From Paenibacillus bovis (lineage in GTDB: Bacteria > Bacillota > Bacilli > Paenibacillales > Paenibacillaceae): a stretch of 64,000 nucleotides of DNA. A program made the translations under genes and the position numbers. The notes beneath the pieces are model-generated. The model did not search any database. It was not told the DNA's origin and worked only from the letters and a program-made list of their open reading frames with translations. This document shows, in pieces, positions 52,283 to 54,200 of this stretch. The first letter of the stretch is position 1. The number at the start of each line of letters is the position of its first letter. The stretch is from contig NZ_CP013023.1 of NCBI RefSeq assembly GCF_001421015.2, positions 608,501 to 672,500 of the forward strand, in the 5' to 3' direction.

Positions 52283-52563
52283 TTATCCACAACCAACAGA
52301 AATCCCGAAATTATACACAGTTATTCACTTATCGACAGAAAGCCTGTGTATAATCATTTTTGATTCTTGACAACCTTCACTCTTGTTCCGAACAATTTAT
52401 AAACAATATCTAGTGGTGTGCATAACTTTTATACACAACAGATTGAATTTGTGGATAAATTATCAGTTTTCGTTGAAATAAAGGGTTCTTTTTGCTATTA
52501 TGATATTGTTTTCGTTGTGAATAGATAATTAAAACTTAAAAACTATCAACAGCCTGTGGATAA
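52283..52563. other. oriC: oriC, upstream DnaA-box cluster
   Basis: Seven exact DnaA boxes are present within 281 bp: TTATCCACA 52283-52291 (+), TTATACACA 52311-52319 (+) and, on the minus strand, 52345-52353, TTATGCACA on the minus strand 52417-52425, TTATACACA 52429-52437 (+), TTATCCACA on the minus strand 52450-52458 and 52555-52563. Several one-mismatch boxes lie in between. The array surrounds the dnaA promoter, so it can both assemble the initiator and repress dnaA. It matches the incA/incB part of the bipartite B. subtilis origin. Confidence 0.93.
52473..52501 (+). promoter_or_regulatory. dnaA promoter
   Basis: TTGAAA (52473-52478) and TATTAT (52496-52501) are spaced by exactly 17 nt. 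DnaA boxes lie 15 bp before the -35 and 54 bp beyond the -10, which fits autorepression. The leader to dnaA is about 210 nt. Confidence 0.8.
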
Positions 52564-52719
52564 AGTTGTGAACAATTTCTTCTTATCCATTTTTTATTTT
52601 ATTCACCGTTCCGGTATTCTGGGGATAAATTACGCTATTTACCATATCTATTATCTACATTTCCGATATCTGCACATGGCTTCAGCCACACATTGGAAGT
52701 TTAAAAGGAGTGACAGTCT

Positions 52720-54071
52720 GTGGACAGCCATACCTCCGAATTATGGCAGCAAATTCTATCTATTATTCAGACAAAGCTAAGCAAGCCCAGCTTTGACACT
52801 TGGTTCAAGGCAACCAAAGCGCTGACATTTACGGAAAATCTGATCGTGATTTCAGCACCGACCACCTTCGCTGTAGAATGGCTGGAAAGCCGGTATACCA
52901 AACTGGTCAGTTCCACCGTTTTTGAATTTTTGGGAAGACAGGTAGACGTCAAATTCGTCATTGAAGAAGCCGTTCCCGAGGAGACACTTATCCCCCGCAG
53001 GCACCGGTGCAGCCGGCAGTTGTGCAGTCGGAAGAGCCTCTCGCCAACATGCTCAATCCCAAATATACGTTTGATACCTTTGTTATTGGTGCGGGCAACC
53101 GTTTTGCCCACGCTGCTTCACTTGCTGTCGCGGAAGCGCCGGCCAAAGCTTATAATCCGCTGTTTTTGTACGGTGGTGTAGGACTTGGCAAAACGCATCT
53201 CATGCATGCGATCGGACATTACATTTTGCAGCACAATCCGAACAGCAAGGTTGTCTACATTTCTTCGGAGAAGTTTACCAACGAATTTATCAATTCGATC
53301 CGGGATAACCGCGGGGAAAGCTTCCGCAACAAGTACCGGAATATCGATATTTTGCTGATTGATGATATTCAATTTCTGGCGGGAAAAGAGTCGACACAAG
53401 AGGAGTTTTTCCATACATTCAATGCTCTGCATGAGGAAAGCAAGCAGATCATTATTTCGAGTGACCGTCCTCCAAAAGAGATTCCAACCCTGGAAGAACG
53501 GCTTCGTTCAAGGTTTGAGTGGGGATTAATTACAGATATTCAGCCTCCGGATCTGGAGACGCGGATTGCGATTTTGCGGAAAAAGGCCAAAGCGGAGAAT
53601 CTGGATATTCCGAACGAAGCGATGATGTATATTGCCAATCAGATCGATACCAACATCCGTGAACTGGAAGGTGCATTGATCCGGGTAGTTGCTTATTCCT
53701 CGCTGACTAATCAGGATGTAACTTCCCATCTGGCAGCCGAAGCCCTGAAGGATATTATTCCTTCCAGCCGTCCCAAAATTATTACGATTCAGGATATCCA
53801 GCAGCGGGTTGGCGAGTATTACAACCTCAAACTGGAAGATTTCAAAGCAAGAAAACGTACCAAGGCAGTAGCGTTCCCAAGGCAGATTGCGATGTACCTG
53901 TCCCGCGAGCTGACCGACTATTCGCTGCCGAAAATCGGCGAAGCGTTTGGCGGACGCGATCATACGACCGTTATTCACGCCCACGAGAAAATTTCCCAGT
54001 CACTCAAGGTGGACCAGGAATTGTTTAAAGTCGTTAACAGTCTGATGGATAAGATCAAAAATCCATCCTGA
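52720..54071 (+). CDS. dnaA: Chromosomal replication initiator DnaA, interrupted by a one-base frameshift
   Basis: The GTG at 52720 has AAAGGAG upstream. Domain I ([22 protein letters not shown]) is read in frame to about residue 92 ([14 protein letters not shown]). Past a C5 tract at 52992-52996 the frame is wrong; domains II-IV continue in the next frame from about 53007 to 54071, with [15 protein letters not shown] (Walker A), LLIDDIQFL (Walker B), and the domain IV helix [15 protein letters not shown]. One extra C in this tract would restore a normal protein of about 450 residues. DnaA is essential, so the shift is most likely a sequence error or a rare event. Confidence 0.93.
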
Positions 54072-54080
54072 ACAACTAAC

Positions 54081-54117
54081 AAGCCTATACACACTTTATA
54101 CACATGTGGATAGGCTT
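54081..54117 (+). terminator. Hairpin after dnaA built around DnaA boxes
   Basis: AAGCCTAT (54081-54088) and ATAGGCTT (54110-54117), extended inward by CACA/TGTG after one mismatch, form a hairpin 9 nt past the dnaA stop. The loop side contains the DnaA box at 54096-54104. The following ACTTTT gives a weak T run. Confidence 0.7.
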
Positions 54118-54200
54118 ACTTTTATGCGGCTTTGAAGGGGTTATCCACATATTCAGTGCCCCTACTACTATTACTATTAATTAAAAGATATATACTTCTT
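54096..54200. other. oriC: oriC unwinding region with DnaA-trio tract
   Basis: Exact DnaA boxes at 54096-54104 (TTATACACA) and 54141-54149 (TTATCCACA) are followed after 13 nt (containing GTGCCCC) by CTACTACTATTACTATTAAT starting at 54162, a repeated trinucleotide tract of the DnaA-trio type, then AT-rich DNA to 54200. This is the arrangement of the basal unwinding system of B. subtilis, in which DnaA extends from the last box along one strand to open the duplex. Confidence 0.9.

Follow-up and report, generated by a model that had tools for sequence, protein, structure and literature searches.

The dnaA gene described here lies in a window of 64,000 nucleotides (the whole stretch of DNA that was analysed; G000:C1:608501-672500) from a 5.5 Mb genome assembled in two contigs with a completeness of 99.99; the second contig measures 163 kb. 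Database comparison gives Paenibacillus species as the named records closest to this dnaA. The features of the locus, in window coordinates, are:

52283..52563, no strand assigned: seven clustered DnaA-box-like 9-mers (oriC region) 5' of dnaA, from a scan for TTWTNCACA
52705..52710, plus strand: AAGGAG, the likely ribosome-binding site of dnaA, read in the sequence 9 nt 5' of the GTG at 52720
52720..53181, plus strand: ORF of 153 aa with DnaA domain I (Pfam DnaA_N at residues 6-64)
52978..52983, plus strand: GAGGAG, a Shine-Dalgarno-like string 8 nt 5' of the C5 tract, also found in the relative loci L004 and L006
52992..52996, plus strand: C5 tract, read in the sequence and of equal length in the two nearest relatives
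52996..52997, plus strand: site of one extra base (A) in the nearest relatives, from alignments with G004, G011 and others
53007..54071, plus strand: ORF of 354 aa with DnaA domains III and IV (Bac_DnaA at residues 16-177, Bac_DnaA_C at 261-329; TIGR00362)
54096-54149, strand not given: two further DnaA-box-like 9-mers from the same scan, on the other side of dnaA
54257..55420, plus strand: the next entry in the ORF list, which from its sequence and the gene order we take to be dnaN (sliding clamp)

The order dnaA then dnaN is the usual one. TTWTNCACA occurs 17 times in the window, against 5.2 expected and a maximum of 11 in 100 shuffles.

The deposited sequence holds no single continuous dnaA frame; the gene occupies two. 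In the first, which starts at the GTG at 52720, Pfam DnaA_N scores 55.7 bits, and the final ~60 codons of this ORF, 3' of the break, are out of frame. The second frame is open from 52965 to its stop at 54071, and its 354 aa product matches Bac_DnaA (272 bits) and Bac_DnaA_C (108.6 bits) and passes the NCBIfam TIGR00362 DnaA cut-off (552.6 vs 343.9 bits). Domain I, the AAA+ domain III and the DNA-binding domain IV are thereby all found across the two pieces, and the frame switch is located at 52992-52997. The initial annotation had read domain I from the GTG at 52720, a change of frame at the C5 tract at 52992-52996 and a continuation of domains III-IV in another frame, and all of this is borne out.

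Which base is missing was judged by comparison with the nearest relatives, G004 and G011, which are 94.8% (over 1.5 kb) and 93.7% identical to the dnaA region of the window. Both have exactly five C residues, followed by an A that has no counterpart in the assembly studied here; at the same position the codons of G001 are CCG CAG. Loss of the A after the C5 tract would be the simplest single event. A C6 tract could instead have lost one C, but only after an earlier A-to-C change. Five C in both nearest relatives, next to an A that has no match here, do not fit a plain C6-to-C5 contraction. The initial annotation, which had restored the frame by adding one C, is therefore well supported in its option of a sequence error, not in the kind of error it proposed.

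The break is private to this assembly in a comparison that covered other species. A search for the AAA+ part in 59 genomes, including the present one, found it in open frames no shorter than 429 codons in 57 of the 58 others (the match in the 58th, G052, is a mere fragment at a contig edge), against 368 codons here. The comparison with the dnaA of related strains that the initial annotation had called for gave one ORF of 448-467 aa, without the break, in 39/39 relative loci read; 29 of these came from the genome search and 10 from another 80, and at least one record apparently occurs twice (L023 and L038). Of 8000 database proteins scored, the best 120 are all at least 444 aa long. The long frame in relatives (57/58 genomes, 39/39 loci) argues that the break is not chance. 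Among the literature titles searched, no report of a split dnaA in Paenibacillaceae was found.

The two pieces have diverged from their relatives almost purely by synonymous change. The ratio of synonymous to non-synonymous codon differences is 3:0 before the break and 67:1 after it relative to G004, 12:1 and 74:0 relative to G011, and 25:2 and 140:5 relative to G001. As the post-break differences are nearly all synonymous (67:1 and 74:0), there is no decay of dnaA and no sign of the relaxed selection expected of a pseudogene, although a very recent loss would stay invisible to such counts. A search of the genome for a second dnaA returned one strong Bac_DnaA match (271.9 bits) and two marginal ones in other ORFs (23.8 and 23.0 bits, cut-off 23), and thus no second gene; a search of the plasmid collection for a dnaA copy gave no match.

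Two side observations concern dnaA-like sequences elsewhere. In the relative G022, a second dnaA-like stretch (G022:C24:38972-39780) contains internal stops, with pieces 75% and 60% identical; it looks like an additional copy in decay, or what remains of one. A comparison of the domain I piece with the database gave 17 matches among 40 candidates, of which two were read: P0122 (123 aa, on a contig of 967,727 bases) and P0124 (109 aa, on a contig of 1,569 bases). Each is a Paenibacillus-like, domain-I-only DnaA with an unrelated tail from the linker onwards, and by their sequences they may represent the same kind of error as the dnaA of the window, or may be real.

Frame breaks were then sought over 800 kb and a further 400 kb of the assembly (~1.2 Mb) by comparison with G004, leaving out ORFs below 120 aa and counterparts below 80% identity or 80% coverage. 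ORFs of the relative with a good counterpart were flagged in 11/409 cases in the 800 kb and 3/264 in the 400 kb; of these 14, inspection of the alignments by eye removed eight in which the ORF reaches further upstream than the probable start of the gene, and kept six. In the reverse direction, 5/412 and 4/266 of the assembly's own ORFs were flagged. These nine comprise two repeats of cases already kept, three ORFs extended upstream, two ORFs of doubtful status, a break in G004 and an MFS transporter in the fold-back arm described below. The outcome is six internal breaks in ordinary sequence among 673 relative ORFs compared. The single clear break on the G004 side is a difference of two bases in an esterase-like gene; at least one more difference of this size, in a 75%-identical ORF (own C1:3619873), fell below the identity threshold.

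All six breaks of the assembly share a sequence signature: each is a one-base loss in, or at most two bases from, a C/G run of at least four. Such positions make up 1.44-1.50% of ORF bases, so that the chance of six out of six is ~1e-11, with the thresholds for run and distance having been fixed after the first cases were seen. The count omits the MFS transporter at C1:3635, of which a whole copy lies at C1:8798-9991; with it included, 6/7 breaks are at C/G runs (chance 7e-11). Besides dnaA, five further genes are broken, near C1:257407, 321859, 395675, 3721249 and 3767478. From their sequences we take the five to be an M20-type peptidase, a sugar ABC permease, a DUF4038-like protein, a DUF72-like protein and a membrane protein; some of them could be real pseudogenes. 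Frameshifted genes in this assembly deserve caution.

The signature fades when all isolated one-base indels are considered. Where the present assembly is the shorter of the two, 9/86 fall at C/G runs, vs 4/87 where G004 is the shorter, a weak excess; some of these indels lie in the fold-back. In the first 800 kb, C/G runs of at least five in G004 are of equal length here for 66 of the 69 aligned, and errors in the assembly are therefore rare. A generally error-ridden assembly was rejected, save for the fold-back end of the contig. A mismatch-repair mutator was likewise rejected, as a family search finds the MutS domain in an open frame of 968 codons and the MutL domain in one of 810, the proteins being judged by frame length and not end to end.

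The fold-back lies at one end of the chromosome contig, ~650 kb from dnaA. The segment C1:1-12632 consists of two inverted arms of ~6.3 kb with 99.2% identity, by the look of it a fold-back assembly artefact. Over 6.3 kb the two arms are separated by 39 indels, at which the outer arm has lost 26 bases and gained 13, and by 4 mismatches. Relative to G004 the outer arm has 51 gap openings and the inner arm 15, and genes that are intact in the inner copy are broken in the outer. Differences so dominated by indels point to long reads with incomplete polishing. C/G runs of at least four hold only 3/39 of the indels; the arms therefore reveal indel-prone data but no run signature.

Taken together, the dnaA break is very probably a consensus error in the deposited sequence, a technical cause that we infer. 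The living strain would most likely carry an ordinary continuous dnaA of ~450 codons, and one base beside the C5 tract would have been dropped from the deposited consensus, so that the gene merely appears split. This reading is favoured because the break is private, there is one dnaA and it has not decayed, six breaks have a common signature and the fold-back is unpolished. It is tempered by an otherwise good assembly, by the rarity of the breaks (6/673) and by the weakness of the excess among all one-base indels. A consensus error would also fit the known difficulty that base callers and consensus tools have with short runs in long reads.

According to PMC12007338, deletion errors of long-read assemblies peak after homopolymers of four to five bases. 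The same paper gives deletion of a non-repeated base as a small part of long-read deletion errors and reports miscounted A residues after C runs as insertions, both of which count against a consensus error at this site. Homopolymer indels in nanopore consensus often produce frameshifts in gene calls, according to PMC9262707; the paper also has R10.4 consensus resolving most runs shorter than 11, a point that we counted against a consensus error. PMC3711429 regards a singleton frame transition as probably an indel mutation or an error of sequencing.

The alternatives to a consensus error all require the deletion to be real. Were it also very recent, having arisen in the sequenced culture, ribosomes might slip back by one base on the C5 tract with the help of the GAGGAG string, as in dnaX. 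Re-reading one base on CCCCC does lead into the downstream frame, GAGGAG stands 8 nt 5' of the tract, and some indels are corrected by frameshifting (PMC5009743). Yet the split is seen in one genome only, dnaA in both L004 and L006 is a single ORF despite the same GAGGAG string, five unrelated genes carry the same break signature, and the RNA 3' of the tract folds less well than the average shuffled sequence (z 0.78 and 0.83). Nor is there a frame transition conserved among orthologues, as would be expected of a dnaX-type gene: it is absent in 39/39 relative loci read. We regard slippage, which the initial annotation had offered as an option, as very unlikely; seen in one genome and with such a fold, it has little support. 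The more elaborate idea, that -1 slippage on C5 in the flexible linker would yield a domain-I-only protein and full-length DnaA from one gene, in a ratio that could tune initiation, is a shade less probable again.

Equally improbable, to our mind, is that dnaA is dead and replication starts independently of DnaA. Engineered B. subtilis can dispense with DnaA when a plasmid origin is placed in its chromosome (PMC10201431), and the present genome does have a second contig of 163 kb; the almost purely synonymous divergence of both dnaA pieces speaks against a dead gene, as do the DnaA-box clusters on both sides of it and an open frame that encodes an RNase HII domain (the sole bypass-related family examined). 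The least probable reading is a DnaA that works as two pieces, with domain I made from 52720 and the AAA+/DNA-binding part from 53007 or 53049. Three in-frame start codons do exist: GTG at 53007, GTG at 53022 and, where domain III begins to border the linker, ATG at 53049. By eye, however, none of the three has a good ribosome-binding site at normal spacing: 53007 has only AGG at 5 nt, 53022 has nothing and the GGAAGAG before 53049 is 12 nt off, which leaves the internal start suggested by the initial annotation weak. A split dnaA was also seen in none of the relative loci read. In the B. subtilis model (PMC10201431), domain I is tethered through domain II and delivers DnaD to the origin. Three single alanine substitutions in domain I abolish DnaD recruitment, and cells survive them only when replication is driven from a plasmid origin. 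Because such changes are lethal in B. subtilis, albeit another genus, a free domain I would not be expected to suffice.

A consensus error at dnaA would carry a practical message. By simple proportion from six losses in ~1.2 Mb to 5.5 Mb, a nearly complete genome in two contigs can carry some tens of one-base losses, and such a loss in an essential gene can pass for exotic biology; we consider the present case a warning. If the break were real, it would mean a split or recoded replication initiator, found in none of the relative genomes examined.

Set against known systems, the dnaA of the window resembles an ordinary Paenibacillaceae DnaA (TIGR00362) in its domains, start codon, gene order and origin boxes, and departs from it only in the single-base break within the linker (domain II). 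With dnaX-type programmed -1 frameshifting (PMC3711429), it has in common the direction of the shift needed and an upstream Shine-Dalgarno-like string; it differs in that the shift is absent in relatives, no downstream structure exceeds shuffles and an A_AAA_AAG-type slippery string is lacking. The closest likeness would be to the gene-fragmenting indel errors of long-read assemblies (PMC12007338, PMC9262707): a one-base loss at a short run splits a conserved gene, and several cases with one signature occur in one assembly. The dnaA case departs from these in being known from the consensus, not at the level of reads or platform, and in lacking an A beside the run, which is the rarer kind of deletion according to PMC12007338.
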